The notes under the pieces: generated by a model
What the model saw: the letters and a program-made list of their open reading frames with translations, nothing else
Databases searched by the model: none
Told to the model about the DNA's origin: nothing
Made by a program: the position numbers and the translations under genes
Part shown: piece by piece, positions 19,998-36,709 of the stretch
Position numbering within the stretch: the stretch's first letter is position 1
Layout: every line of letters starts with the position of its first letter
Source: Lachnospiraceae bacterium
GTDB taxonomy: Bacteria > Bacillota > Clostridia > Lachnospirales > Lachnospiraceae
Direction of reading: 5' to 3'
NCBI GenBank assembly: GCA_017446045.1
Contig: JAFSRP010000033.1
Coordinates: forward strand, 1-48,384
DNA length: 48,384 bases

Positions 19998-20891
19998 ATG
20001 AAAGTATATGCGCATGCAAAAATAAATCTTTCCCTGGACGTCTGCGGACGTCGTCCGGACGGGTATCATGAGGTCCGGATGATCATGCAGAGCCTGGCAC
20101 TTTCCGATGAGATCGTACTGACGCCCCGGGAGGACAGTCAGATCCTGATGACCATGGAGCCCGCTGTGGAAGATATCCCGACAGACGGGCGGAACCTCAT
20201 GGTGCGTGCTGCGCGTCTCATGCAGGAAAGCTGCGGGATCAGGCAGGGCGTGGACATGCATCTTATTAAGCGGATCCCGTCTCAGGCCGGACTTGGCGGG
20301 GGTTCCGCAGATGCCGCGGCAGTACTGAAGGGAATGAACCGCCTGTTTGGCACAGATCTTTCGGATAAGGCGCTGCAAAAGCTCGGACTCGGGCTCGGAG
20401 CGGATGTTCCGTTCTGTGTTATGGGAGGTATGGCTATGGCAGAGGGCATCGGCGACCGCCTGACAATGGTCCTCCCGCACGTTGTTTTTGATGGCATGCC
20501 GGTCCTTCTTGTGAAGCCGGCCCGCGGTATTTCTACAGGCGCAATGTATGCCGCGCTCGATGCGCAGCCCGATCTGCGGCATCCGGATACGGATGCCTGC
20601 CTGGATTCCATAATCAGGGGGGACCTCCTTCTGCTTTCAGAGTCGGCAGCCAACAGCTTTTCTCTTCCGGTGGAACGGGAGATCCCGGAGATCCGTAAGA
20701 TCATTGATGACATGCGCCGCTGCGGTGCTTTTTTTGCCTGTATGAGCGGCAGCGGACCGACCGTCTTTGGATTGTTCCGGGCAGAAGATGCCCTTCGAAA
20801 CGCGGAAGAAACGATCCGGGGAGCCGTCTACGCGGATCAGCTTTCGGATATTATCCACACATCATTTGAGACAAAAAAAACGGATCCCTGA
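19998..20891 (+). CDS. ispE: 4-diphosphocytidyl-2-C-methyl-D-erythritol kinase IspE
   Basis: A 297-residue GHMP-family kinase. The N-terminal AKINLSLDVCGRRPDGYHEV is the IspE signature with the catalytic Lys and substrate-binding His. The glycine-rich ATP loop PSQAGLGGGSADAAA begins at residue 94, and the third GHMP motif is FACMSGSGPTVFGLF. It phosphorylates CDP-methylerythritol in the MEP route to isoprenoids, so this organism uses the MEP pathway. ATG at 19998 gives the expected start (MKVYAHAKINL), but no Shine-Dalgarno sequence is seen before it, unlike its neighbours. Its stop codon lies inside the loop of the terminator hairpin. Confidence 0.95.
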   Translation: MKVYAHAKINLSLDVCGRRPDGYHEVRMIMQSLALSDEIVLTPREDSQILMTMEPAVEDIPTDGRNLMVRAARLMQESCGIRQGVDMHLIKRIPSQAGLGGGSADAAAVLKGMNRLFGTDLSDKALQKLGLGLGADVPFCVMGGMAMAEGIGDRLTMVLPHVVFDGMPVLLVKPARGISTGAMYAALDAQPDLRHPDTDACLDSIIRGDLLLLSESAANSFSLPVEREIPEIRKIIDDMRRCGAFFACMSGSGPTVFGLFRAEDALRNAEETIRGAVYADQLSDIIHTSFETKKTDP

Positions 20892-20904
20892 CAGGATCCG
20901 TTTT
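20877..20904. terminator. Bidirectional terminator between ispE and gntR
   Basis: Perfect 11-bp inverted repeat AAAACGGATCC (20877-20887) and GGATCCGTTTT (20894-20904). A run of eight A (20873-20880) gives a strong T-tail for the minus-strand gene; TTTTG serves the plus strand. The ispE stop TGA (20889-20891) is in the loop. Confidence 0.9.
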
Positions 20905-20945
20905 GTATTGAGTTTGTCTGACGCGGCGATCTGTCAGTCCCGGAC

Positions 20946-21635
20946 TCAGCGGCCGGTGTCCAGCGATTCTTCCTTCAGTTTCGCAAGGACAGCTTTTTCC
21001 TGATTTCCGATATGCTTTTCCACAAGGTTCAGGCCGTTTTCCGCATCGCGCTCCGCAAGTGTTTCCACAATGGCGCGGTGATCTTCGATCAGCTCGGACC
21101 GGACCGCCCGATTCTTGGCATACTCCATACGGTAACGGTACATATTTTCCTTGAGGTTGGTCAGGATCTCCAGAAGCTTGTCGTTGCCTGCGGCATCGTA
21201 AATGATGAAGTGGAACTTCTCGTCAGCCTCCGCGATCGATACCAGGTCTCCGCCCTCAACGGCAGCTTCAAAGTCAGCTTCGGCTGCACGCAGACTGGCA
21301 ATGGCTTCATCCGTGATGTTCTCGAAAGCACATTCATATGCCATTTTTTCCAGAGTCATGCGGACACGAAGTACATCTTTCAGCATTTTCTCGGAAATAC
21401 CCGCCACGATAGCTCCTTTACGGGGAATCATGGTGACAAGGCCTTCCGCAGCCAGTTTGCGGATCGCTTCGCGGATCGGTGTGCGGCTGACGCCCATCTT
21501 CTCCGCCAGCTGGATCTCCATCAGGCGCTCACCCGGCTGAAGCTCACCTTTCAGGATAGCCTGCCGGAGCGTCGTGAACACCAGTTCTCTCAGGGGCATG
21601 TACTCATTGATAATAACGGTAAAATCCGATCCCAT
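20946..21635 (-). CDS. GntR-family regulator with FCD domain
   Basis: A 229-residue regulator. The N-terminal winged helix has the GntR signature (LRQAILKGELQPGERLME, then KMGVSRTPIREAIRKLAAEG). The C-terminal helical FCD domain has the metal/ligand histidines in EKFHFIIY, IEDHRAIV and VEKHIG. FCD regulators sense small carboxylates such as sugar acids or acyl-CoA. I set the start at the ATG at 21633-21635 (MGSDFTVI) because GAGGTGA is well spaced before it; the frame extends 14 codons further without a better site. No metabolic target gene is adjacent, so it may act at a distance as well as on itself. It ends at the shared terminator. Confidence 0.9.
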   Translation of the reverse strand: MGSDFTVIINEYMPLRELVFTTLRQAILKGELQPGERLMEIQLAEKMGVSRTPIREAIRKLAAEGLVTMIPRKGAIVAGISEKMLKDVLRVRMTLEKMAYECAFENITDEAIASLRAAEADFEAAVEGGDLVSIAEADEKFHFIIYDAAGNDKLLEILTNLKENMYRYRMEYAKNRAVRSELIEDHRAIVETLAERDAENGLNLVEKHIGNQEKAVLAKLKEESLDTGR

Positions 21636-21680
21636 AGTGATCACCTCATCCGTATACGTGCCTGATCGACGGCACAAATC

Positions 21681-21714
21681 TTAGTAGTATAAGAGTACTA
21701 AAAAAAATGCAAAA
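21681..21714 (-). promoter_or_regulatory. gntR promoter with self-operator candidate
   Basis: Minus strand: -10 TATACT (21686-21691) with -35-like TTTGCA 16 bases away (21708-21713). The inverted repeat TTAGTA (21681-21686) and TACTAA (21696-21701) overlaps the -10 and could be the site where the GntR protein represses itself. Another 6-bp inverted repeat, TTAACT-GCAT-AGTTAA, lies further upstream at 21743-21758. Confidence 0.45.
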
Positions 21715-21766
21715 ATACAAGCCTATTTTTAAAAATCTTTATTTAACTGCATAGTTAAGTATTCGT

Positions 21767-22723
21767 TCATTTACCGCTTTCGCTCGTTCTGCGGATGTTG
21801 GAATCCAGCAGTTTGTTGTACCCGAGCCATCCGTCGGCATTCTGCGGCGCTTTGCTTTTGAATGCCTCATACATGGTTTCGACCTTGGCGTCCATGTTAT
21901 CCACAAAGCTCAGGATCATTGCTTCCACGATCGCGGGCTTTTTGGGGGATCCGTATTCCAGCTCACCGTGGTGGGAAAGGATCATGTGGATGAGCTCGGC
22001 GGAGAGTTTGCGCGGAAATCCTTCGATCTTTCGGATCCGTTCACTGACGATCTGTGCGCCGATCATGATATGTCCCAGGAGCTGGCCTTCATCTGTATAC
22101 TCATTATACGGGAAAGCGCTGAGCTCAGAGAGCTTTCCGATGTCATGCAGGATGGCACCGGTGACCAGCAGGTCCCGGTTGACGAAGGTATAGTGACGGG
22201 AGATGTCATCGCAGATCGTAGCGACACTTAAGGAGTGCTCCAGAAGCCCGCCGATAAATCCGTGATGGACGCTTCGGGCAGCACTGTGGCGGCTGAAACG
22301 TTTGACGAAGACCGGGTCTTCAAAGAACGAGGCCAGAAGCTTCTGCAGATAAGGGTCATTGACGGAACGGATGAGTTCCAGCATGGAAGCTTTCATTCCG
22401 TCGATATCCTTTTCCGAGACCGGAAAGTAATCCGAAGGGTCATATTGCCCGTCGGACGCCACCTGGATCCGGTGTATATTCAGCTGGTTTGCATTGTTGA
22501 ACACGGTCACGCTGCCGTCGACCTGGACATAGTCCATGGCTTCGAAATCACGGATCGCGGGACTGTTCAGATCCCAGATCTTTGCTTCCAGCTGGCCGGT
22601 CTTATCCTGCAATGTCAGGCTTCCGTATTCCTTTCCGTTCTTGGTAAGGGCGATGGTCTTGGTCTTGCAGAGATAGACGCCGCTGACATGCATACCGTCC
22701 TGCAGACTTTCAATATATTTCAT
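21767..22723 (-). CDS. yhaM: 3'-5' exoribonuclease YhaM family
   Basis: A 318-residue protein with the YhaM architecture: an N-terminal OB-fold for nucleic-acid binding (GSLTLQDKTGQLEAKIWD, residues about 35-52) followed by an HD phosphohydrolase domain (HHGFIGGLLEHSLSVA, then GAILHDIGKL and ILSHHGELEYGSP). YhaM trims RNA 3' ends in Firmicutes with Mn2+ or Co2+. The sequence is full length. The start has AGGAGAG in good position on the minus strand. Upstream of it the divergent L,D-transpeptidase gene begins; downstream, gntR has its own promoter. Confidence 0.92.
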   Translation of the reverse strand: MKYIESLQDGMHVSGVYLCKTKTIALTKNGKEYGSLTLQDKTGQLEAKIWDLNSPAIRDFEAMDYVQVDGSVTVFNNANQLNIHRIQVASDGQYDPSDYFPVSEKDIDGMKASMLELIRSVNDPYLQKLLASFFEDPVFVKRFSRHSAARSVHHGFIGGLLEHSLSVATICDDISRHYTFVNRDLLVTGAILHDIGKLSELSAFPYNEYTDEGQLLGHIMIGAQIVSERIRKIEGFPRKLSAELIHMILSHHGELEYGSPKKPAIVEAMILSFVDNMDAKVETMYEAFKSKAPQNADGWLGYNKLLDSNIRRTSESGK

Positions 22724-22907
22724 AAGGTCTCTCCTGTTCGGGGTGATGCCGGCGTTTCCGGCATAGAGTCCTGATTAGTATACATGATTGGAAGCTTTTT
22801 TTCAGCATTTCCTAATCATTTCGTAAAAAATATAAATGGTGAAATATGGTAGTATTAAAAGCGGAGACCTGTTCATGGGTCTTACAGACAAGTATGAGGA
22901 GAATCCG

Positions 22908-23741
22908 ATGAGGAAGATGATCATACCGGCTGTCGTCGCAGCCGCAGGCATATTCTGTTTCAGTGCCTTTGCGGGCGGTCTGGGCAAGTCCGCAATAGTG
23001 CCCGCGCATACTCAGGCGGGACCGGGACCGGGCGTCCAGGCATCTGTAGGCTTTGCGATCACAGAAACACCTGCAGCCGGCGCGGATGCAGCCGGAAAGG
23101 AAACGACAGCCTGGGATCCCGCAAAGGCGGCCGTACCAGCCGATGCGCGCGTCATGATGACGCTGGAAGGCAGTCGCAGCGAGGATCACGGTATTTTTCG
23201 GATCTATACCCGCAGCCAAGAGACAAACGGAGGACTTGCCCCCTGGACACTGGCTTTGGAGACCGCTGCCATGAGCGGCAGGAATGGTCTGTACAAAGAA
23301 GTAGAGGGTGACAAAAAGACTCCGGTCGGCATTTTTAAGATGAACACACCCTTCGGGATCCTGCCCGCGCAGGAAGGATTCCCGTCCAATTATGTACAGG
23401 CGGATGAGCGCTTCTACTGGGTAGGGAATTCCGATTCCCCCATGTATAACCGCTTCGTACGAAGCGATATTTTCACCGAGTTCGATCCGCGGGCTTCAGA
23501 GCAGATCGTGAGGTACCCCGGATACTATAATTACTGTATCGATACCGGATACAATCCGGAGGGCATACCTTACAGGGGCTCTGCCATCTTTCTCCACTGT
23601 GTGGTAGACGGACAGAACACCGCCGGGTGCATCGCCATTCCGGAAGCGGACATGGTCACGGCGATGAAGCTGTACCGGGAGGGCACCAGTTATATGGTGA
23701 TCTTTGACAGGGCTGATATCGGGGCAGTATACGCGAACTGA
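22908..23741 (+). CDS. Secreted L,D-transpeptidase-family protein (YkuD fold)
   Basis: A 277-residue exported protein. The signal peptide (MRKMIIPAVVAAAGIFCFSA) is followed by a low-complexity Ala/Pro/Gly linker to about residue 75. The catalytic domain ends with the YkuD-type active site: HCVVDGQNTAGCIAIPE, with His230 and nucleophile Cys241. Such enzymes cross-link peptidoglycan peptides in the 3-3 manner or attach proteins. The spacing between His and Cys and the GC(I) start fit the family, although the usual Ser before Gly-Cys is replaced by Ala. I choose the ATG at 22908 because AGGAG (22897-22901) is 6 bases before it; the ATG codons at 22836 and 22875 would spoil the signal peptide. 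Monocistronic, with its own terminator. Confidence 0.85.
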   Translation: MRKMIIPAVVAAAGIFCFSAFAGGLGKSAIVPAHTQAGPGPGVQASVGFAITETPAAGADAAGKETTAWDPAKAAVPADARVMMTLEGSRSEDHGIFRIYTRSQETNGGLAPWTLALETAAMSGRNGLYKEVEGDKKTPVGIFKMNTPFGILPAQEGFPSNYVQADERFYWVGNSDSPMYNRFVRSDIFTEFDPRASEQIVRYPGYYNYCIDTGYNPEGIPYRGSAIFLHCVVDGQNTAGCIAIPEADMVTAMKLYREGTSYMVIFDRADIGAVYAN

Positions 23742-23754
23742 CAGAGGAAGTATT

Positions 23755-23780
23755 GAAAACGGAGCGCAGGCTCCGTTTTC
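23755..23780 (+). terminator. Intrinsic terminator after the L,D-transpeptidase gene
   Basis: Perfect 11-bp stem GAAAACGGAGC (23755-23765) and GCTCCGTTTTC (23770-23780), 4-base loop GCAG. Confidence 0.9.
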
Positions 23781-23790
23781 TATGTCTATA

Positions 23791-23819
23791 TTGCAGTTTG
23801 GACAGTTCTAAGGTACAAT
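23791..23819 (+). promoter_or_regulatory. Promoter of the RND efflux operon
   Basis: TTGCAG (23791-23796), 17-bp spacer, TACAAT (23814-23819). The leader of about 90 bases contains a hairpin with stem CCGGGA (23866-23871) and TCCCGG (23884-23889), without a T-run, that could regulate or stabilise the message. Confidence 0.6.
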
Positions 23820-23917
23820 ACAATATTAACTTATTATGATTAGTTGCATTAAGCTAACTTTCACGCCGGGACCTTCTTTGGGATCCCGGTGACGTACTGG
23901 ATAAAGGCAGGATTTTT

Positions 23918-25102
23918 ATGAAGAAAACGGAAAAAAGATCTTCTCTCGCCGGAAAGATCATTCTGCTGCTGGTGTTGGCTGCTATCATCGCTTTGATAGT
24001 ACTGCGCCTGCGCAAACCGAAGGATGAACTGGTAACGAAGCCGCTGTCTACAGTGTCCGTGGAAGCGCCGCAGTATGCGGACATATATATCCATACAGAT
24101 CTCGTAGGCACAGTCATGCCCGGCGATGTGTATTATGTCGTTCCGAAGGCTGTCGGTGAGGTCCGGGAGATCTTTGTCCATCAGGGGGACCATGTGAATG
24201 AAGGCGATCCTATCTGTACGATCGACAACCAGAAGGCGATCGACGGGGCACGGATCTCGATGGATGCGGCAGAGGTCCAGGTCAATACTTTGAGTGAAAG
24301 CGTGGCGCTGGCCCGTACGAATCTGGACCGCATGGCGGCGCTGAGACAGACAGGGGATATTTCCGCACAGGCATATGAGCAGGCTAAGAGCGCCTACGAC
24401 CAGGCTGTCTCCGGGTTGGAGGGCGCAAGACTGCAGTATGACGGAGCCAAGCTCCAGTATGATACCCAGGTGGAGTTCTCAACAGTGACCTCGCCGGTGA
24501 ACGGTACGGTAGAGTCCACCGATATGAGCATCAATGCCATTGCTTCCCAGACCTCACCGCTTGCGGTGATCTCCTCCCTTGACGTCGCGAAGCTGGAGTT
24601 CTCTGTGACGGACCGTCTGCTGGATTCTTTGTACATCGGTTCCAAAGTGGAAGCACAGCGCCAGGGAGAGATCTACCCTGCCCATATCACCAAGATCTCC
24701 AGGCTGCCCAGCCAGACCAGCGGCCTTTATCCCGTGGAAGCTGCTTTTGACGGTCTGCAGACCATGGCGAGAGGTACCGCTGTCAAGGTGACCTTTGTTT
24801 CCGAGAAAGCGGAAAATGTTCTGACAGTCAGCACAGACAGCATTTACTATGACGGCGGAAAGTCCTATATCTATACGATCAGCTATAATGAGGATGCGGG
24901 GGTTCAGGATGAAGGCGTCCTGATCTCTGAGAACAACAGAGCCGGAACTGTACATAAACATGAGATACAGACCGGTCTTTCGGATGTGGAAAGGACGCAG
25001 ATCCTGGACGGCCTTTCCGAGGATGATGTTGTGATCCGTACCTGGACTTCCCAGCTGTATGAAGGCGCGCAGGTACAGGCCAGGAGACCGGAGGACAGCT
25101 AA
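23918..25102 (+). CDS. RND efflux membrane-fusion (periplasmic adaptor-type) protein
   Basis: A 394-residue protein with one N-terminal membrane anchor (IILLLVLAAIIALIVLRL). It then has the HlyD/AcrA pattern: first half of a lipoyl domain (GEVREIFVHQGDHVNEGDPI), a helical hairpin of about 75 residues rich in Ala/Leu/Gln, second lipoyl half (FSTVTSPVNGTVESTDM), and a beta-barrel and membrane-proximal domain. It should bridge the RND pump to outer partners. The helical hairpin is short. Upstream is a promoter with a 90-base leader; AGGCAGGA lies before the ATG. Its stop touches the next ATG directly (TAAATG). Confidence 0.9.
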   Translation: MKKTEKRSSLAGKIILLLVLAAIIALIVLRLRKPKDELVTKPLSTVSVEAPQYADIYIHTDLVGTVMPGDVYYVVPKAVGEVREIFVHQGDHVNEGDPICTIDNQKAIDGARISMDAAEVQVNTLSESVALARTNLDRMAALRQTGDISAQAYEQAKSAYDQAVSGLEGARLQYDGAKLQYDTQVEFSTVTSPVNGTVESTDMSINAIASQTSPLAVISSLDVAKLEFSVTDRLLDSLYIGSKVEAQRQGEIYPAHITKISRLPSQTSGLYPVEAAFDGLQTMARGTAVKVTFVSEKAENVLTVSTDSIYYDGGKSYIYTISYNEDAGVQDEGVLISENNRAGTVHKHEIQTGLSDVERTQILDGLSEDDVVIRTWTSQLYEGAQVQARRPEDS

Positions 25103-28100
25103 ATGATCAGAGTCACTAAATTTGTCCTCAGGCGCCCGGTCACAACGCTGCTGGTCGTCCTTTCCCTCTTCTTTTTCGGAATTATGGCGCTTGTCAGTTC
25201 CAAACTGGAACTGACGCCGGAGATCAACATGCCCATGCTGGTCGTTACGACCACTTACCCGGGCGCCAGCCCGCGGGACGTGGATGAGCTGATCACTAAA
25301 AAGATGGAGGAAAATGTCGGAACCTTAAGCGGTATCGACACGCTGGCCGGTATTTCCAACGAGAACTTTTCACTCGTGCTGCTTCAGTATGAATACGGTA
25401 CGGATATGGATAATGCCTATTCGGACCTTCGAAAGCGTGTGGACCAGGCGAGAACGAGTCTTCCTGAGGATGCCAATGAGCCGGTGATCTATGAACTGGA
25501 CGTCAACCAGGTGGCATCCATGTATGTCACGATCAAAAACTCCGGTGTCAATAACATCCTGAACTATGCCAAAAAGTATGTGGTCCCGGAACTGGAAAAG
25601 CTCGCTTCTGTCGCGTCGGTCGATACTTACGGCGGGCAGCAGGACTATATCCGGATCTGCCTGAGCCCTGAAAAGCTGGAGCGGTATCATTTGGATATCA
25701 ATTCCGTCGCTCAGCTGGTGGGTGCCGCTTCCTTCACGATCCCCGCCGGATCCACGGGTGTCGGCAACACGGATATGAGCGTTTCCGCCGGTGTGAAATA
25801 TAAGACACCGGAAGAGCTGAAGCGGGTCCCGATCACCTACGGCGGCGGCAATATCATCTATCTTGAGGATATCGCGGATATCTACCGGGCACAGAAGAAA
25901 CAGAGCGCAGTCGGCCGCTATAACGGCGAGGACGTGGTGATGCTGGGCCTGAACCGCAATCAGAAGTATACGGCGGTCAATGTCTCAAGGGCGGCAAAAA
26001 AAGTATTTGAAGAGATCAGGGCAGATGACCCCAACGTAGAATTCATCATCGTCAATGACAGTGCCGACGACATTATGGGCTCCATTGAAACGATGCTGAA
26101 GACCATGGCAGCTGCAGTTGTGATCTGTACGATCGTATTGTTTCTGTTCTATGGCGATGTCAAGGCGTCCCTGATCGTAGCCACTTCCATCCCCATCTCC
26201 ATTCTGACTGCTTTTGTCATGATGTGGGCGAGGGGATATTCCCTGAATGTCATCACCCTTGGCTCCATGGTCCTCGGTGTCGGTATGATGGTAGATAACT
26301 CCATCGTTATCCTGGAGTCCTGTTTCCGGTCCATGGAAGCGCATCCGGGTCAGACGTTTGAGGATTATATGCATTCCGCGGTGGATGGCACGGGAATCGT
26401 GGCAGCCAGCGTATTCGGCGGTACGCTTACGACCTGTGTGGTCTTCCTGCCGCTGGGCTTCCTTGCAGGGCTGTCGGGACAGTTTTTCCAGCCGCTGGGC
26501 ATGACCATCGTGTTCTGCATGGTGGCATCGCTGCTCTCGGCAGTGTCCCTTGTTCCTCTGTGCTACGTATTCTATAAACCGGTGGAGCGGGAGAGCGCGC
26601 CGGCTTACCGCTTTATTCGCAACCTGCAGGGGGAGTACCGTGACATGATGGAGGGCATCATGCGTCACAAGAGGATCGTTATCGCGGTCACGCTCTTCCT
26701 GTTTGCGGGTTCCATTTTCCTTGCGACCAGGCTCGATATGAAGCTGATGCCGGAGATCGATCAGGGCCAGATCAGCATAACCGTCAGCATGAAGCCCAAC
26801 CTCAACATGGATACCCAGGAGAAGACCTACCGGCAGATCGAGGAGTTGATCAGTGCGGATGAGGACCTGGACAGTTACATGATCTCTTCCGGCGGCGGAT
26901 TCATGACCGGCGGTTCCGCGAGCCTGACGGCATATCTGAAGGATGACCGTAAGAAGACGACCGATGAGACAGTCGAGATCTGGAAAAAGATGCTGCAGGA
27001 TGTGGATAACTGTGATCTGAGCGTTTCAGCCTACTCGGAGACGAGCATGATGAATATGAGCGCGGGATATTCACAGACACTGAACGGCGCGGATTACGAT
27101 GCGCTGAAGACGGCGTCCGACAGGATCACTGCCGAACTGGAAAATGATCCGCGTCTGACCTCTGTGTCGTCTTCCCTCGGCAATGCGTCCCCGATCATCA
27201 AGATCAACGTGGACCCTGTCCAGGCTGCCGCGGAGGAATTTGTTCCCGCACAGGTATCCGGCGGTCTGTATACGATGCTGAACGGTACGGAAGCCGATAA
27301 GATGGAGCTCGACGGTGAATCCCTGTCGATCCGGGTGGAGTATCCGGATGACCAGTTCGATACGATCAACAAGGTCAGGGATATCCGCCTGACCTCCGCA
27401 TCCGGCAACACGGTATACCTTAAGGATATCGCGGAGATCACCTTTGAAGACAGCCCGCTGTCGATCCAAAGGACCGACAAACAGTATACCGCGGAGATCA
27501 CGGCAGGTTATACGGATCTCGCAAACCGTATGACGGCGATGGATATACACGACAACGTGATCCTGCCAAACCTGACGGACGGTATACATGAGCAGGAGAA
27601 CTCCAGGATCGAGATGATGAATGAAGAGTTCGGCAATCTTTTCCGCGCGATCCTCATCGCGGTCTTCCTGGTCTTCGTAGTCATGGCAGCGCAGTTCGAG
27701 TCGCCCCGTTTCTCCTTCATGGTCATGACGACGATCCCCTTTGCCATGGTGGGATCTTTCGGATTCCTGTGGCTGTTTGATATTCCGCTGACCATGCCGG
27801 CACTGATCGGTTATCTCATGCTGATCGGCACGGTCGTCAACAACGGTATCCTTTATGTAGATACCGTCAACCAGTTCCGTGAGGAAATGCCGCTCGAGGA
27901 CGCCCTGATAGAGGCAGGAGCGATCCGTCTCCGGCCGATTCTGATGACGACCCTGACTACGGTCCTGGCCATGCTGCCTATGGGTCTCGGGATCGGCAGA
28001 TCTGCCGAGCTGATGCAGGGACTTGCGATGGTCAATATCGGTGGCCTGCTGACATCCACGATCATGGCGCTGTTGGTGCTGCCGGTATACTATTATTACA

Positions 28101-28180
28101 TGACAGGCCGGAAGAAGCGTGCGGCTCTGGAGGCGAAACTGGGGTCAGAGCCCGATGAAAAAGGAGAGATCAATGACTGA
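25103..28180 (+). CDS. RND efflux pump permease (AcrB/HAE1 type)
   Basis: A full-length 1025-residue RND permease with twelve helices and two large extracytoplasmic loops. It begins with FVLRRPVTTLLVVLSL, the family's first helix. Helix 4 reads GMMVDNSIVILES: Asp398 corresponds to the first Asp of the AcrB proton relay, while the second is Asn399. In helix 10 the AcrB Lys is replaced (VVNNGILYVD, Asn913-914), a pattern I know from Firmicute RND pumps, so the relay is reduced compared with AcrB. GGAGG before the ATG. It is the motor of the operon; substrates such as drugs, bile acids or lipids cannot be told from sequence. Confidence 0.93.
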   Translation: MIRVTKFVLRRPVTTLLVVLSLFFFGIMALVSSKLELTPEINMPMLVVTTTYPGASPRDVDELITKKMEENVGTLSGIDTLAGISNENFSLVLLQYEYGTDMDNAYSDLRKRVDQARTSLPEDANEPVIYELDVNQVASMYVTIKNSGVNNILNYAKKYVVPELEKLASVASVDTYGGQQDYIRICLSPEKLERYHLDINSVAQLVGAASFTIPAGSTGVGNTDMSVSAGVKYKTPEELKRVPITYGGGNIIYLEDIADIYRAQKKQSAVGRYNGEDVVMLGLNRNQKYTAVNVSRAAKKVFEEIRADDPNVEFIIVNDSADDIMGSIETMLKTMAAAVVICTIVLFLFYGDVKASLIVATSIPISILTAFVMMWARGYSLNVITLGSMVLGVGMMVDNSIVILESCFRSMEAHPGQTFEDYMHSAVDGTGIVAASVFGGTLTTCVVFLPLGFLAGLSGQFFQPLGMTIVFCMVASLLSAVSLVPLCYVFYKPVERESAPAYRFIRNLQGEYRDMMEGIMRHKRIVIAVTLFLFAGSIFLATRLDMKLMPEIDQGQISITVSMKPNLNMDTQEKTYRQIEELISADEDLDSYMISSGGGFMTGGSASLTAYLKDDRKKTTDETVEIWKKMLQDVDNCDLSVSAYSETSMMNMSAGYSQTLNGADYDALKTASDRITAELENDPRLTSVSSSLGNASPIIKINVDPVQAAAEEFVPAQVSGGLYTMLNGTEADKMELDGESLSIRVEYPDDQFDTINKVRDIRLTSASGNTVYLKDIAEITFEDSPLSIQRTDKQYTAEITAGYTDLANRMTAMDIHDNVILPNLTDGIHEQENSRIEMMNEEFGNLFRAILIAVFLVFVVMAAQFESPRFSFMVMTTIPFAMVGSFGFLWLFDIPLTMPALIGYLMLIGTVVNNGILYVDTVNQFREEMPLEDALIEAGAIRLRPILMTTLTTVLAMLPMGLGIGRSAELMQGLAMVNIGGLLTSTIMALLVLPVYYYYMTGRKKRAALEAKLGSEPDEKGEIND

Positions 28181-29327
28181 AGTTTTCAATAAAAAAATAC
28201 GCCGTGTGATGGCAGTTCTGGGCACCGCACTGTTTTCGGGCGCGATGGCGCTGTCCGTTTCGGCTGCGACGCCGGAATTCGCGCGCAGCGAGGAAGAGTG
28301 GGCACACCTCAGGGACAACGTCCTGGAGTGGTATGAGATCGAGGACCTGATCCATGAGTACAACGCGACTGTCCTGAAAAACCGGGAAGATCTTTCCAAG
28401 GACGAACGGCGCAGCATGGATGCCGAGGAACTCCGTGACTATCTGCTCAGTGAAGCGGATGACATGGATTCCATGGCGGATTATGCGGACAGCGCTATGG
28501 TGGCTGCTACATTCCGCACCCAGGCGAATGCGCTCCGCAGCCAGGCTGACAGCAATGTGACTGATTTTGATATCATCCGTCTCGACTATGAAGTGATCGA
28601 GAAAAACCTGTTCCGGACAGCACAGGACCTGTTCGTCAATTATTATACCGCCTTGGCGAAGAAGGCGGGCGCGGAGTCGGGTGTCGCTTATCTGGAACGG
28701 GCATATGCGTCTGCCGTGAACCGCAGAAACGTCGGAATGGCGACAGAACTGGATGTACTGACAGCACAGGAGAGTCTGGAAAACGCGAGGGCTGCGCTGG
28801 TGGCGAACGAGACGGAAGTCCGTACCTCACTGACCAACCTGCAGGTGCTTTGCGGATGGGGTTATGACAGCGCGGCAGAGATACGCGAAGTCCCGGAGGT
28901 GGATCCGGCTTCTTTTGCGGGGATCGATCCCGAAGCGGATCTGGCACAGGCTCTTGCGGCAAGCTATACACTGAAGACGGATGAGATCCGGCTGAAGAAT
29001 GCGCGCAGCTTTTATCCGGGGCTGTCCGAACAGTATGAGAGTCAGCTGGCAGCGGATACCAACACCTTTAAGGTCGGATTCCGCGGGGCTTATGACAGCC
29101 TGATCAATGCGGGACTGGCATACAGCAACGCCTGTGCGGACCATGCCCTGAAGGCACAGGATCTGGCTGCGGCCGAGAGGAAGCTTTCGCTCGGACTGAT
29201 CAGCCAGATGGAGTATGAAGGCGTTCGCAACGACCTGATCACCATGCAGACAGCAGAACGTACAGCCTACCTGGCGATGGTCAGCGCAAAGGCGGCATAT
29301 GACGCTGCTGTCAGAGGGATCCTGTAA
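28173..29327 (+). CDS. TolC-family (outer-membrane-factor-like) protein, first paralogue
   Basis: A 384-residue exported protein. The start at 28173 overlaps the permease by 8 bases and has AAGGAGAG close by; it gives a clean signal peptide (VLGTALFSGAMALSVSA, cleaved at AAT). The rest is almost entirely helical with two similar halves of long hairpins, as in the OEP/TolC family: LDVLTAQESLENARAAL in the middle and a matching AERKLSLGLISQMEYEGVRN near the end. True TolC proteins form barrels in an outer membrane; here there is no sign of an outer membrane, so it may form a helical conduit through or in the cell wall (inference). Shares the opening motif LRDNVLEWYEIEDL with the next gene. Confidence 0.8.
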   Translation: MTEVFNKKIRRVMAVLGTALFSGAMALSVSAATPEFARSEEEWAHLRDNVLEWYEIEDLIHEYNATVLKNREDLSKDERRSMDAEELRDYLLSEADDMDSMADYADSAMVAATFRTQANALRSQADSNVTDFDIIRLDYEVIEKNLFRTAQDLFVNYYTALAKKAGAESGVAYLERAYASAVNRRNVGMATELDVLTAQESLENARAALVANETEVRTSLTNLQVLCGWGYDSAAEIREVPEVDPASFAGIDPEADLAQALAASYTLKTDEIRLKNARSFYPGLSEQYESQLAADTNTFKVGFRGAYDSLINAGLAYSNACADHALKAQDLAAAERKLSLGLISQMEYEGVRNDLITMQTAERTAYLAMVSAKAAYDAAVRGIL

Positions 29328-29332
29328 AGACC

Positions 29333-30598
29333 ATGAAAAGAATCTGCAGATTAAAAATCAATATAGCGGTATTTCTGGCTTCTGTCAGTCTGGGGTGCGG
29401 CGCGCTGTGCTTTCCGGCGAAGGCGGCGCCGACCTATGACGATCTTCCGGAGGGCATGACGGCAGAGCGGCTGACACAGCTGAATGATGCCGTGATCGAA
29501 TGGGACGAGATCGAGGACCTTGTGGTCTACTGGAACCCGACGTATACACGCTATTTCAATGCGGCACAGAGTAATGTGACTGAGTTGAAAGCGGGCTACA
29601 GCGATTTTGTGGATGAGGTACGGGACCAGCTGGAAGAGATCGACGGCGCGATCGAACAGATCCGTACTTCTCAGGAGATGATCTCTTCCCTTCCCGGCAG
29701 CATGGTGCCGTATGGCGGCGCGGTCATACCCAAAGACGCTGCGCTGCAGGCACTGCAGGATGCGCTGAACCAGACGAAGGAAGGACGGAGGCAGCTGAAA
29801 GGCGCTCTGCACTCCACCAAGACCGGTCTGAACCGTTCCGATAAATCGATCGATATCCGGCTCCGTCCCTTAAGAGAGCAGATGATCTCAGTGGTCCGCG
29901 GTCTGGTCGTTTCCTACAAGCAGCTGGAGACCAACCGGACCATGGTCGCCAAACAGGTGGAGCTGTACCAGACGATCTATACGACCCAGCAGCATATGTT
30001 TGCACAGAACATGGCGACAGCCCTGGATGTGCAGGCATATGAAAACCGGCTGAACAGTGCGGTACAGAGTCTTGCGCAGATCGACGCCGGACTTGCGCAG
30101 CTGCGGAAAAATATTGCCCTGCAGTGCGGATACAGACCTGATACCGAGGTGGTGATCGCTGATATTCCCGCGCCCGATGTCCATTTTCTGGAAGGTCGGG
30201 ATTATGCGGCTGACAGGCAGTGTGCCGTCAGCGGCAATCCGGAAGTGATCGAAGCCGGCAGGGTGAAGAACTTTTCGAGTTACGGCTTCCAGCTGCGGGA
30301 CCTTTCTGAGAATGAGGCAACCGGTAAGGCTTCCGCAAAAATGGATACGCTGTATGCCGAGATACAGAAGCAGACCGCGCTCTGTGAGGCTGCGGAGATC
30401 TCCCGCCAGAAGGCGGAACGGACCAGAGACAGTGCCGAGAGACAGAATGCGCTGGGGCTTCTGGGCCGGAGTGAATACGAGGGGCTGCAGATGCAGTACA
30501 TCAGCTACGAGGCGGCTGCCAGACTGGCTACCCTGAACCTGACACAGGCGATCGATACATACCTGTGGGCACTGAGAGGAATCATGACGTTAGAATGA
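29333..30598 (+). CDS. TolC-family protein, second paralogue
   Basis: A 421-residue exported protein with signal peptide (IAVFLASVSLGCGALCFPAKA). Layout and motifs follow the gene before it: LNDAVIEWDEIEDLV near residue 50, LDVQAYENRLNSAVQSL in the middle and LGLLGRSEYEGLQ at the end, close in position to the partner's LGLISQMEYEGVR. The two are therefore paralogues, though overall they have diverged strongly. It differs by about 40 extra residues between the first and second helices (ALQDALNQTKEGRRQLKGAL). Only 5 bases separate it from the first copy. The two proteins may assemble together. Its stop overlaps the next ATG (ATGA). Confidence 0.78.
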   Translation: MKRICRLKINIAVFLASVSLGCGALCFPAKAAPTYDDLPEGMTAERLTQLNDAVIEWDEIEDLVVYWNPTYTRYFNAAQSNVTELKAGYSDFVDEVRDQLEEIDGAIEQIRTSQEMISSLPGSMVPYGGAVIPKDAALQALQDALNQTKEGRRQLKGALHSTKTGLNRSDKSIDIRLRPLREQMISVVRGLVVSYKQLETNRTMVAKQVELYQTIYTTQQHMFAQNMATALDVQAYENRLNSAVQSLAQIDAGLAQLRKNIALQCGYRPDTEVVIADIPAPDVHFLEGRDYAADRQCAVSGNPEVIEAGRVKNFSSYGFQLRDLSENEATGKASAKMDTLYAEIQKQTALCEAAEISRQKAERTRDSAERQNALGLLGRSEYEGLQMQYISYEAAARLATLNLTQAIDTYLWALRGIMTLE

Positions 30599-33297: not shown

Positions 33298-33349
33298 ACT
33301 GTTCAGCATCAGTCCAGCTCCATTCGGAGTTTGGCTTATGCTGAACAGT
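33298..33349 (+). promoter_or_regulatory. Long hairpin directly before murC
   Basis: Perfect 12-bp inverted repeat ACTGTTCAGCAT (33298-33309) and ATGCTGAACAGT (33338-33349). Inside it, CTCC (33318-33321) pairs with GGAG (33326-33329), extendable by CCA/TGG pairs. It ends 14 bases before the murC ATG, has no T-run, and would expose or hide the start region. Probably a translational control or mRNA-stability element. Confidence 0.6.
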
Positions 33350-33363
33350 TACTGTCAAAGACC

Positions 33364-34746
33364 ATGTATCAGGTAGACTTTCATAAACCAATCCATGTGC
33401 ATTTTATCGGCATCGGCGGCATAAGCATGTCCGGCCTTGCAGAGATCCTGCTCTCCGAAGGGTTCACGGTCAGCGGGTCCGATATGAAGGCATCCGAACT
33501 GACGGACCATCTGAAGGAGAAGGGGGCGGTGATCGCCATCGGTCAGAGGGCAGAAAATATCACCTCTCCGGATCTGGTCGTCTATACCGCGGCGATCCGT
33601 CCGGACAACCCTGAGTTCCGGGAAGCAGTCGATCGCGGTATCCCCATGCTGAGCCGGGCAGATCTTCTCGGTGAGCTGATGAACAATTATCGCGAGGCGG
33701 TCAATATTGCCGGCACCCACGGCAAGACTACTACCACTTCCATGATCACCAATATCCTGCTGGAGGCGTCCAAGGACCCGACTGTCAGCGTCGGCGGGAG
33801 CCTTGATTCGATCGGAGGCAATGTCCGCATCGGCGGTTCCGATCTATTTGTGGCAGAGGCGTGTGAGTATACCAACAGCTTCCTGAGTTTTCATCCCACC
33901 ATTGCCGTGATCCTCAACGTAGAGGCGGATCACCTGGATTTCTTCAAGGATCTTGACGATATCCGGAAGAGTTTCCGCCGTTTTGTGCAGACCCTGCCCC
34001 AGGATGAGCGCGGACTGCTCGTGCTCAACGGCGACATCACCGACAGGTCGTTCTTTACGGAAGGGATGGGCTGCAGTGTGGTGACTTTCGGCTCTTCGGA
34101 AGACTGTGACTATTCAGCTCGTGACATCGTTTTCGATGAGCTGGCGAGGGCGTCCTATACCCTGCTGAGATCCGGCAGGGAGGCCGGGCGTGTACATCTG
34201 GGCGTTCCGGGTGAGCACAATGTCTACAACTCCCTTGCTGCCATTGCGGTGGCAGACCGGCTGGGCATCCCGCTTGCGACAACGCTGAAAGGCCTGGAGT
34301 CCTACACGGGCGTCCGGCGCCGTTTCGAATACAAGGGCAAAGTCAACGGCTTTACCATACTGGACGATTACGCCCATCACCCGCAGGAGATCACAGCGAC
34401 GCTTGCGGCGGCGGCGCGATATCCGCACAGAAAGATCCACGTGATCTTCCAGCCGCACACCTATACCAGGACCAAAGCGCTCCTGCCCGAATTTGCCGAA
34501 GCACTGATGGCGGCGGATGAAGTGATCCTGGCAGATATCTATGCGGCGCGAGAGAAAAATACCATCGGGATCAGTTCCGCGGATATCGGAGATCTGATCA
34601 ATACATCCGGTGGACGGGCAGTCTACATTCCCACCTTTGAAAAAATAAAACAATATGTTCTGGAAACAGTACAAGAGGGGGATTTGTTGATAACTATGGG
34701 TGCGGGAAACGTCGTAGATATCGCAGATCAGCTGATTTCTGAATAG
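33364..34746 (+). CDS. murC: UDP-N-acetylmuramate--L-alanine ligase
   Basis: A 460-residue Mur ligase. The N-terminal UDP-binding domain begins HVHFIGIGGISMSGLAEIL, a MurC signature. The ATP loop is GTHGKTTTT (residue 117 on), then the conserved EACEYTNSFLSF. The C-terminal domain contains DDYAHHPQEI. It adds the first amino acid of the stem peptide, L-Ala, to UDP-MurNAc in peptidoglycan synthesis. I choose ATG 33364 (MYQVDFHKPIH), the start seen in related proteins; the in-frame TTG at 33331 lies within the hairpin and its ribosome-binding site is too close. No strong ribosome-binding site is seen for the ATG either. Only 84 bases separate it from rny. Confidence 0.95.
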   Translation: MYQVDFHKPIHVHFIGIGGISMSGLAEILLSEGFTVSGSDMKASELTDHLKEKGAVIAIGQRAENITSPDLVVYTAAIRPDNPEFREAVDRGIPMLSRADLLGELMNNYREAVNIAGTHGKTTTTSMITNILLEASKDPTVSVGGSLDSIGGNVRIGGSDLFVAEACEYTNSFLSFHPTIAVILNVEADHLDFFKDLDDIRKSFRRFVQTLPQDERGLLVLNGDITDRSFFTEGMGCSVVTFGSSEDCDYSARDIVFDELARASYTLLRSGREAGRVHLGVPGEHNVYNSLAAIAVADRLGIPLATTLKGLESYTGVRRRFEYKGKVNGFTILDDYAHHPQEITATLAAAARYPHRKIHVIFQPHTYTRTKALLPEFAEALMAADEVILADIYAAREKNTIGISSADIGDLINTSGGRAVYIPTFEKIKQYVLETVQEGDLLITMGAGNVVDIADQLISE

Positions 34747-34863
34747 TTATCCACTTTATCCACAGAGCTGTACACAAATTATGTCAATCGGCCCTGTGGA
34801 TTTTATTTTCGGGAAAAGCTCGAAAATAGCGTGTTTGGTCAGAAAATATCCACTTTATCCACA
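34747..34863 (+). promoter_or_regulatory. DnaA-box cluster before the dnaD-dnaI genes
   Basis: Two perfect consensus DnaA boxes TTATCCACA (34756-34764 and 34855-34863), each preceded by a degenerate copy ending CCACT (34747-34755 and 34846-34854), and a degenerate reverse box TGTGGATTT (34795-34803). The 16-bp block ATCCACTTTATCCACA occurs twice, 99 bp apart. Between them lies a perfect 8-bp inverted repeat TATTTTCG (34804-34811)/CGAAAATA (34821-34828). The inverted repeat ATCCACAG/CTGTGGAT (34758-34801) followed by TTTATTTT may also end murC transcripts. A weak promoter, TTTTCA-17-TAATAT, ends at 34918. Confidence 0.7.
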
Positions 34864-34952
34864 ACTTATTTATGGTAACCGTGCTGCTATTTTCAATTCA
34901 ACCTGCCTGTGTTAATATATGCGGGAAGAGTGGTTTTGGAGCAGTTTCAGCA

Positions 34953-35708
34953 ATGAGTTACACAGATCTTTTTCAAATCGACGCAACAGTAGTTGCCAAC
35001 GAGTTTTTAGATAAATACATGCCCCGTGCAAACGGTGATTATGTCAAAGTTTACCTTTATCTCCTTAAGAACCGCGTCAGTGGGATCGATGTGGAAACGA
35101 TCGCAGAGCATCTGCAGCTGACGGAAGGTGACGTACGCCGCGCTATCCGTTATTGGGAGGATCAGGGTATCGTTTCCATAGGGGAAGGTTCGGACGGAAA
35201 GGCAGACAGGACTCCGCAGAAGAAGCAGGAGGCACAGGCAAAGTCTGCGCCTCAGCCGGAGGTATCCGAGGCCGAGCTGCGCAGCCATTACCGCAAAGCA
35301 GAAGGCAAGGAGGCGCTCGACCGTCTTTCAAAAGATGCTGAGTTCGGCGAGCTCCTTTTTATCGTACAGAAATACCGTTCCAAGATCCTGACAGAGCGGG
35401 AAGAGCAGATTCTGGCTTACCTCTATGACGGACTGAAGCTTCCCTGTGACGTGTTGGATTATCTCGTCTCCTACTGTGTCGAAGCCGGCCATAGCGATAT
35501 GAGATATATCGAAAAGACCGGTCTGGACTGGGCGCGCAGAGGGATCCGGGATGTCCGGGCCGCGCGGCAGCGCACCAGGGAATTTGATGCGGCTCGTGAG
35601 GAAAAGGCCGGCAGAAGAACAGCAGCATCCAGCCGGCAGGGCATGACCCGTGAGACGGATCTGGACGCGCAGCTTCTGGATAGGATCATACAGAGGAAAT
35701 TGATGTAA
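34953..35708 (+). CDS. DnaD-domain primosome protein
   Basis: A 251-residue protein with the two-part DnaD layout. The N-terminal winged helix (ITVETIAEHL-like stretch: GIDVETIAEHLQLTEGDVRR, then AIRYWEDQGIVSI) is joined by a charged linker to the C-terminal DnaD/DnaB_2 domain (ELLFIVQKYRSKILTEREEQ, then ILAYLYDGLKLPCDVLDYLV). Such proteins help load the replicative helicase at origins and restart sites in Firmicutes. The start is at ATG 34953; the ribosome-binding site GGAG is somewhat far (11 bases). The open frame upstream runs into the regulatory region. The stop overlaps the dnaI-like start (TAATG), so both are co-translated. Confidence 0.88.
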   Translation: MSYTDLFQIDATVVANEFLDKYMPRANGDYVKVYLYLLKNRVSGIDVETIAEHLQLTEGDVRRAIRYWEDQGIVSIGEGSDGKADRTPQKKQEAQAKSAPQPEVSEAELRSHYRKAEGKEALDRLSKDAEFGELLFIVQKYRSKILTEREEQILAYLYDGLKLPCDVLDYLVSYCVEAGHSDMRYIEKTGLDWARRGIRDVRAARQRTREFDAAREEKAGRRTAASSRQGMTRETDLDAQLLDRIIQRKLM

Positions 35709-36709
35709 TGGCACTGACCAGAGAGCAGTATGATGAGATCATGAGGACCTTAAGCGACCGCCGGAGCGCGGCGCTGGCCCGGCAGAAAGAAAGGCAGGAA
35801 GCAGTAGAGAGACAGCTTCCTGCTCTTCGTGATTATAACGATAAAATTGCCGGCCTGTCCCGGCAGGAGGTAGAAGCCCGGCTGCACAGGGACAGCAGTC
35901 GGGTGGAGATGCTGCAGGCAGAAAGGCGGCAGCTGGTCCTGGAAAAGGATAAACTCCTGCAGGAGGCGGGCATCAGCCCGGATTATGCTCAGGTCGCGTA
36001 CTTCTGTACTAAGTGTAAGGATACCGGATACCATGACAATGAGAAGTGCGGCTGTATGCGCCAGCTGGAATCGGAGCTGCTGAACCGTGAAGCAGGGCTG
36101 CCGGAACTTCTCGCCCGTGAGAATTTTTCCACTTTTGACCTCAGCGTATTTGATGATCGTCAGCCGCTGTCGGAACTGATGCCGGGAAGAAAGATCACCC
36201 AGCAGGAATATATGCGGTCAGATATCCTTCCCGTCATACGGCAGTTCCTGATCGGGTTTGAGGAGCCGGGGAGCCATAACATCCTGATGATCGGCCCTCC
36301 CGGCACCGGCAAGACTTTCCTTTGCAACTGTATCGCCCGGCGCCTGATCGAGCGCCAGCATACGGTGATGTATGAACGCGCGGACCGGCTGTTCGGAGCG
36401 ATGACGAAAGAGCATTTTGCGCGGGAAAAGGATGAGACACAGCAGCAGCGCTTTGAACGGATCGGAAGCTGTGAGCTGCTGGTCCTCGATGATCTGGGGA
36501 CAGAGTTCATGACAGATTATACAAAAACAGAGCTCTTTTCCCTAATTTCCAATAGACTTTCGGGCGGGTTATCTACTATAATATCATCGAATCTGTCAAT
36601 GAATCAGATCAAGAACATTTACAGTGAGCGTATCTCTTCCAGATTGATGGGAGAGTACAGGCTTCTTCGGTTTTTCGGCGCAGACCTCCGTCTGACACGC
36701 AGACAGTAA
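35708..36709 (+). CDS. DnaI/DnaC-type helicase-loader ATPase
   Basis: A 333-residue protein. The N-terminal 100 residues are helical and end with a zinc-ribbon-like CTKCKDTGYHDNEKCGCM (four Cys), as in DnaI of Bacillus, which binds DNA through its zinc domain. The AAA+ ATPase follows: Walker A GPPGTGKTFLCN, Walker B LLVLDDLGTE, and the sensor and arginine-finger region in ISSNLSMNQIKNIYSERISS. It should load the DnaB-type helicase together with the DnaD-like protein encoded just before. Transposon IstB proteins share the ATPase, but the zinc domain and the neighbour favour a chromosomal loader. Confidence 0.9.
   Translation: MALTREQYDEIMRTLSDRRSAALARQKERQEAVERQLPALRDYNDKIAGLSRQEVEARLHRDSSRVEMLQAERRQLVLEKDKLLQEAGISPDYAQVAYFCTKCKDTGYHDNEKCGCMRQLESELLNREAGLPELLARENFSTFDLSVFDDRQPLSELMPGRKITQQEYMRSDILPVIRQFLIGFEEPGSHNILMIGPPGTGKTFLCNCIARRLIERQHTVMYERADRLFGAMTKEHFAREKDETQQQRFERIGSCELLVLDDLGTEFMTDYTKTELFSLISNRLSGGLSTIISSNLSMNQIKNIYSERISSRLMGEYRLLRFFGADLRLTRRQ

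Follow-up and report, generated by a model that had tools for sequence, protein, structure and literature searches.

DnaA-regulated promoters have been described at sda, ywlC and the yydA region in Bacillus subtilis and at nrdA and mioC in Escherichia coli (PMC4447404). In E. coli, DnaA prefers paired boxes, the members of a pair being 2 to 3 bp apart, and a transcribing RNA polymerase can be halted by DnaA bound in its path (roadblock termination, for example at asnC; PMC11317965). Six clusters of DnaA boxes lie outside oriC in B. subtilis and are thought to titrate DnaA (PMC13220808, PMC11019786, PMC5295017). Firmicutes such as B. subtilis are described as being without Hda and SeqA. In Caulobacter, DnaA boxes are reported upstream of dnaB, encoding the helicase, and of dnaQ (PMC8203912).

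The top B. subtilis regions for DnaA binding in vitro are oriC, ywcI/vpr, gcp/ydiF, trmE, ywlC, yqeG/sda and yydA, followed by codV and rplB; in contrast to the murC-dnaD cluster described here, no dnaB-dnaI or dnaD site is among them (PMC4447404). A B. subtilis DnaA site at nrdR-dnaB-dnaI was not confirmed, as a search found no paper on it and it is absent from the same top regions. Among the E. coli, B. subtilis and Caulobacter regulon members presented in these sources, none was seen that has strongly clustered boxes at a dnaD operon or at dnaB-dnaI (PMC4447404, PMC11317965, PMC8203912). A search of open-licence PMC papers found none on DnaA boxes in Lachnospiraceae, or on DnaA boxes with murC in Clostridi- taxa.

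The window (the whole stretch of DNA analysed, 48,384 nucleotides from a Lachnospiraceae bacterium) carries two tandem pairs of putative DnaA boxes on the forward strand between murC and a dnaD-like gene. Group A (34747..34764) begins immediately behind the murC stop codon, at the very next base, and consists of a partner box, TTATCCACT (34747-34755, one mismatch to the consensus), and a perfect box, TTATCCACA (34756-34764). Group B (34846..34863) consists of ATATCCACT (34846-34854, two mismatches) and a second perfect TTATCCACA (34855-34863), and ends 49 bp upstream of the inferred -10 of dnaD. A reverse box, AAATCCACA, with two mismatches lies at 34795-34803. The 16-bp unit ATCCACTTTATCCACA has exactly two copies in the window, at 34749 and 34848, a spacing of 99 bp. 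The first-pass annotation had reported these two perfect, two partner and one reverse boxes and the exact 16-bp repeat at this spacing, and all are present. It had, however, missed a further box, TTATCAACA, on the reverse strand inside murC (34685..34693; murC codons TTG TTG ATA ACT), and the cluster is therefore wider than the 34747-34863 given to it. There is also a second inverted repeat (34803..34829, 11-bp stem, no strand assigned), which visual inspection did not reveal in the upstream DNA of near relatives.

The locus resembles the DnaA-regulated promoters of B. subtilis and E. coli in having clusters or pairs of boxes near a promoter (PMC4447404). It differs from those promoters in that the target here would be a helicase-loading operon, that the gene upstream contains one of the boxes and that another box coincides in part with an arm of a terminator. 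Reading the paired boxes as the functional unit is supported by the E. coli literature, although the pairs at this locus abut, without the gap of the E. coli pairs (PMC11317965). Boxes upstream of a helicase-related gene are shared with the Caulobacter regulon, which differs in belonging to another phylum, in concerning the helicase and not its loader, and in that its boxes are predicted (PMC8203912).

The gene upstream of the cluster, murC, encodes UDP-N-acetylmuramate--L-alanine ligase (33331..34746, forward strand; TIGR01082, 483 bits, cut-off 335). Downstream on the same strand are a dnaD-like primosome gene of the DnaB_2/DnaD family (34953..35708; PF07261, 66 bits), whose start codon was picked by conservation (an earlier in-frame ATG is at 34872), and a dnaI-like gene for a helicase-loader ATPase (35708..36709; NF005304, DnaI-like ATP-binding protein, 296 bits, cut-off 215). 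The names dnaD and dnaI proposed from the sequence hold for the DnaB_2 match and for NF005304, which was passed, but the dnaD-like product falls narrowly below the cut-off of the DnaD_dom model TIGR01446 (24.7 vs 24.95 bits). About 6 kb downstream of dnaI is a gene for ribosomal protein L3 (42719-43351), followed by short genes in an arrangement like that of an S10-type operon, of which L3 alone was confirmed. The position of the L3 gene would fit an origin-proximal placement of the locus.

The boxes at the locus are real and beyond chance. With up to one mismatch allowed, TTATCCACA is matched 22 times in the window, compared with 8.6 expected, and none of 100 shuffles had as many. More consensus boxes than expected by chance lie upstream of dnaD, as a DnaA-regulated promoter requires. 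In the whole assembly (2,264,095 bases in 63 contigs, 79% complete) perfect boxes number 21 per 2.26 Mb, and no other two are as close together as those of the locus. The tandem pair TTATCCACATTATCCACA was found with at most two mismatches only as the two pairs of this locus; five more matches in the assembly each have three mismatches. Boxes elsewhere in the genome are therefore not equally dense, which answers the density check suggested with the first-pass annotation. The window contig holds five of the 21 perfect boxes of the assembly, in 48 kb of 2,264 kb; the three outside the locus are at 20851, 21897 and 27001 (stretch 20851-27009).

Conservation upstream of dnaD in relatives, a second check suggested there, proved strong. 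A protein search returned 11 loci, eight of which (L010-L017) have this layout in some form. NF005304 was found in all of 150 Lachnospiraceae genomes (149 above the cut-off), and upstream DNA was taken for 110 of them (30 automatic loci and 80 fetched regions). Together with the window and the protein-search loci this gave 122 loci, each with an identifiable dnaD relative. The 500 bp before the dnaD start contain one or more perfect boxes in 101 of the 122, and two or more in 76, counting some loci that hold less than 500 bp of upstream sequence and three distant ones (L018-L020). With three more family loci from class-level draws there were 125, and the murC motif was recognised in 105. The 105 murC-dnaD gaps (26,198 bp) contain 218 perfect boxes, compared with a mean of 0.5 in ten first-order resamplings, although related genera share ancestry and are not independent.

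The intragenic box is conserved as well. Its exact form in murC, TGTTGATAA, is present in 81 of the 105 relatives (window counted), and the distance from it to the first forward box is 62 bp in 54 of these and 63 bp in 13 (67/81 together). Codon choice at the box is strongly biased compared with the rest of the same murC fragments, in tests that count genera as independent, though they are not: leucine is encoded by TTG in 81 of 96 cases (84% vs 7.5%), isoleucine by ATA in 88 of 99 (89% vs 16.1%) and threonine by ACT in 87 of 105 (83% vs 19.0%). The MurC residues at the box are DLLITMGAG in 85 of 105. In the 26 of 30 outgroup murC genes with a recognised motif, the residues at this site are variable and none has the box. 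The intragenic box thus appears to hold both the codons and the residues of MurC. A protein-binding site would then seemingly dictate the sequence of an adjacent enzyme across many genera.

Neither part of the arrangement is indispensable everywhere, since both the intragenic box and perfect gap boxes are missing from nine of the 105 loci, and another 15 have gap boxes but no exact intragenic box. Joint loss of the intragenic and gap boxes was considered and rejected: raw counts gave a signal of co-occurrence (Fisher P = 0.0002), but on the tree the association was not significant with the perfect-box measure (median P = 0.25) and was absent with the measure of three or more near boxes (median P = 1).

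The dnaD promoter was inferred by comparison with relatives (34890..34918, forward strand), with a weak -35 (TTTTCA) and an extended -10 (TGTTAATAT). A consensus promoter scan of the window found no promoter, and the window's own -10 is weak. Many murC-dnaD gaps have an extended -10 (TGnTATAAT-like) and weak -35 elements. By a strict definition of the -10, 80 of the 105 gaps qualify, 79 of them with a forward box upstream. The end of the last box is 48 to 54, 58 to 60, 66 to 70 or 77 to 80 bp from the -10 in 64 of the 79, these bands having been named post hoc from the data, while the distance from the -10 to the ATG varies from 27 to 122 bp. Among the window and its near relatives (L010-L017 and L051) the distance from box to -10 is 49 bp in eight of ten. 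The boxes are thus conserved and linked in position to a promoter, as in DnaA-regulated promoters, with the caveats of shared ancestry and post-hoc bands. Distances show a periodicity of about 9 bp, which is accounted for by the 9-bp tandem units, so helical phasing of boxes to promoter cannot be claimed.

The layout is widespread in Lachnospiraceae, extends to part of the order that includes the family and is scarcely found beyond that order. The order was sampled by fetching 20 of 56 genomes; one belonged to the window's own family, and the other 19 represent 18 sister families within the order. Nine of the 19 have one or more perfect boxes within 600 bp, and in six a reverse TTATCAACA precedes a forward box by exactly 62 bp. 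Of the 50 loci from the class-level draws, 49 had a recognisable dnaD. All three loci from the same family (L201, L207 and L208) have the cluster, and two from one sister-family genome (L197 and L198) have no box. Outside the order a perfect box was found within 500 bp in only one of 44 loci (L204), many of which fall slightly short of that upstream length, and the murC motif, in its strict form, was found upstream of dnaD in none of the 44.

Because of this conservation in relatives, the preferred spacing to a conserved promoter and the near-absence of boxes outside the order, the cluster is rather likely to be a conserved operator at which DnaA controls the dnaD-dnaI operon, and the relatives probably use DnaA to control helicase-loader supply. 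The first-pass annotation had suggested DnaA feedback on loader supply, and the same three lines of evidence support that part of its proposal, but not the second origin that it offered as an alternative. DnaA would bind cooperatively at the tandem pairs, at group A just after murC with the intragenic box as a helper, and also at group B, which is placed for promoter contact. The amount of active DnaA would then determine, through the bound protein, how strongly the helicase-loading genes are transcribed. Group A and the murC box would form a cooperative upstream assembly overlapping the murC terminator, and these upstream boxes may also help to insulate the operon against read-through from murC. 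Activation is the preferred sign of control, as the boxes lie upstream of the weak -35 and not over it, although repression is possible. If the operator is real, it would provide a direct, testable feedback link between the initiator DnaA and helicase-loader supply in these bacteria.

A less likely role is titration, in which the cluster would chiefly sequester DnaA and the neighbouring genes would be incidental. The boxes match the consensus and are presumably strong, and the B. subtilis clusters outside oriC provide a precedent (PMC13220808, PMC11019786, PMC5295017). dnaA was not found in the window's 79%-complete assembly, where the sole DnaA-family match is the dnaI gene, so its placement and the comparison with the origin were made in relatives. 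In eight genomes with both on one contig (G030, G040, G064, G077, G093, G108, G118 and G127; the G093 contig was taken as circular), dnaA is about 100 to 670 kb from the cluster. By this placement the cluster is often origin-proximal and, like those of B. subtilis, lies outside oriC. However, titration alone needs neither a fixed spacing to the dnaD promoter nor a box in murC, and both are kept; nor does it need the association with dnaD-dnaI that the cluster maintains from genus to genus.

The sequence called a degenerate reverse box in the first-pass annotation is present, but is best read mainly as one side of the murC terminator stem, the other side being a DnaA box. The terminator hairpin (34758..34801, forward strand; RNA fold -18 kcal/mol, z -3.5) overlaps the second box of group A with its 5' arm and the reverse box with its 3' arm. 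An ATCCAC...GTGGAT core is present near the end of murC in 67 of the 105 gaps. At least four of five extra pairs extend the stem in 58 of the 67, compared with a mean of 15.4 and a maximum of 26 for shuffled partners. The reading as a terminator arm rests on this pairing, which is kept while the extended stems use 38 different 5-mers, and on the T-rich tail found in 55 of the 58. A hairpin, a T-run and pairing maintained as the sequence changes are the features of an intrinsic terminator. In many relatives the motif TTTACATAA was seen by eye 3' of the hairpin (for example in gaps L050, L078, L107 and L118), and TTATGTAAA lies within the hairpin loop in some near relatives of the window.

The pairing of the second group A box with the reverse arm, and the covariation of the stem extensions, might suggest that the box-like sequences are simply terminator stems to which DnaA does not bind. 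This is very improbable, as it leaves unexplained the first box of each pair, group B, and the intragenic box with its codon bias, and a terminator requires no fixed stem sequence. With DnaA bound at the proposed operator, a roadblock effect at the murC terminator is a possibility by analogy with E. coli, although here, unlike in the E. coli case, the box is built into the stem of an intrinsic terminator.

That the cluster is a second replication origin, or part of a bipartite one, is scarcely credible and was rejected on GC skew, long DnaA-trio runs and its location away from dnaA, despite several boxes in an intergenic region beside helicase-loading genes. Runs of at least two DnaA-trio units after the boxes are commoner than in shuffled sequence (77/99 vs 55/99 gaps), but runs of at least three are not in excess (15/99 vs 17/99). 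Skew is positive in all rows of the window profile, with no switch at the cluster. In G030 it switches at dnaA (-0.106 to +0.101), three stretches before dnaA being negative and five after it positive, among them both flanks of dnaD (+0.132 and +0.175). G108, of the same genus as the window, also has a switch at dnaA and positive skew on either side of dnaD, in an irregular profile with some other stretches near zero or mixed. The 4.3 kb around dnaA in G108 contains one perfect box and the murC-dnaD gap two.

A second recurrent site of paired boxes exists in the family. The exact 18-bp pair occurs in 91 of the 150 family genomes, compared with none for a reversed control. Of the 150 sites of the pair that were listed, from a larger total, 81 (in 58 genomes) are no more than 4.5 kb upstream of dnaI and the other 69 are elsewhere. 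In 24 loci away from dnaD (one per genome), the locus of about 3 kb contains hpf, secA or a gene for an SH3-NlpC/P60 hydrolase in 19; mecA is present in one of the other five, and the remaining four lack all of these genes. Protein families at these loci were confirmed for ten proteins. Neither the window's genome nor G108 yielded this site. DnaA may also control hpf, secA, mecA or the hydrolase gene in Lachnospiraceae.

More tentatively, an old operator across the family and part of the order could couple initiator activity to helicase-loader supply, with one box fixing codons and residues of MurC and another serving as a stem of the murC terminator, so that DnaA occupancy could set both murC termination and firing of the replication operon. 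With the second site near hpf, secA, mecA or the NlpC/P60 hydrolase gene, it might form a small ancestral DnaA regulon.

Abutting pairs near hpf, secA, mecA or the hydrolase gene were observed in 20 of the 24 loci (L151, L153-L158, L160, L271, L280, L281, L283, L284, L286, L290-L293, L295 and L296). Elsewhere in the window, positions 23918-30598 encode an AcrB-type RND transporter and its HlyD-like partner, and the product of the gene that follows weakly resembles an outer-membrane efflux family, scoring below the cut-off. Such a set is unexpected in a family usually regarded as Gram-positive.
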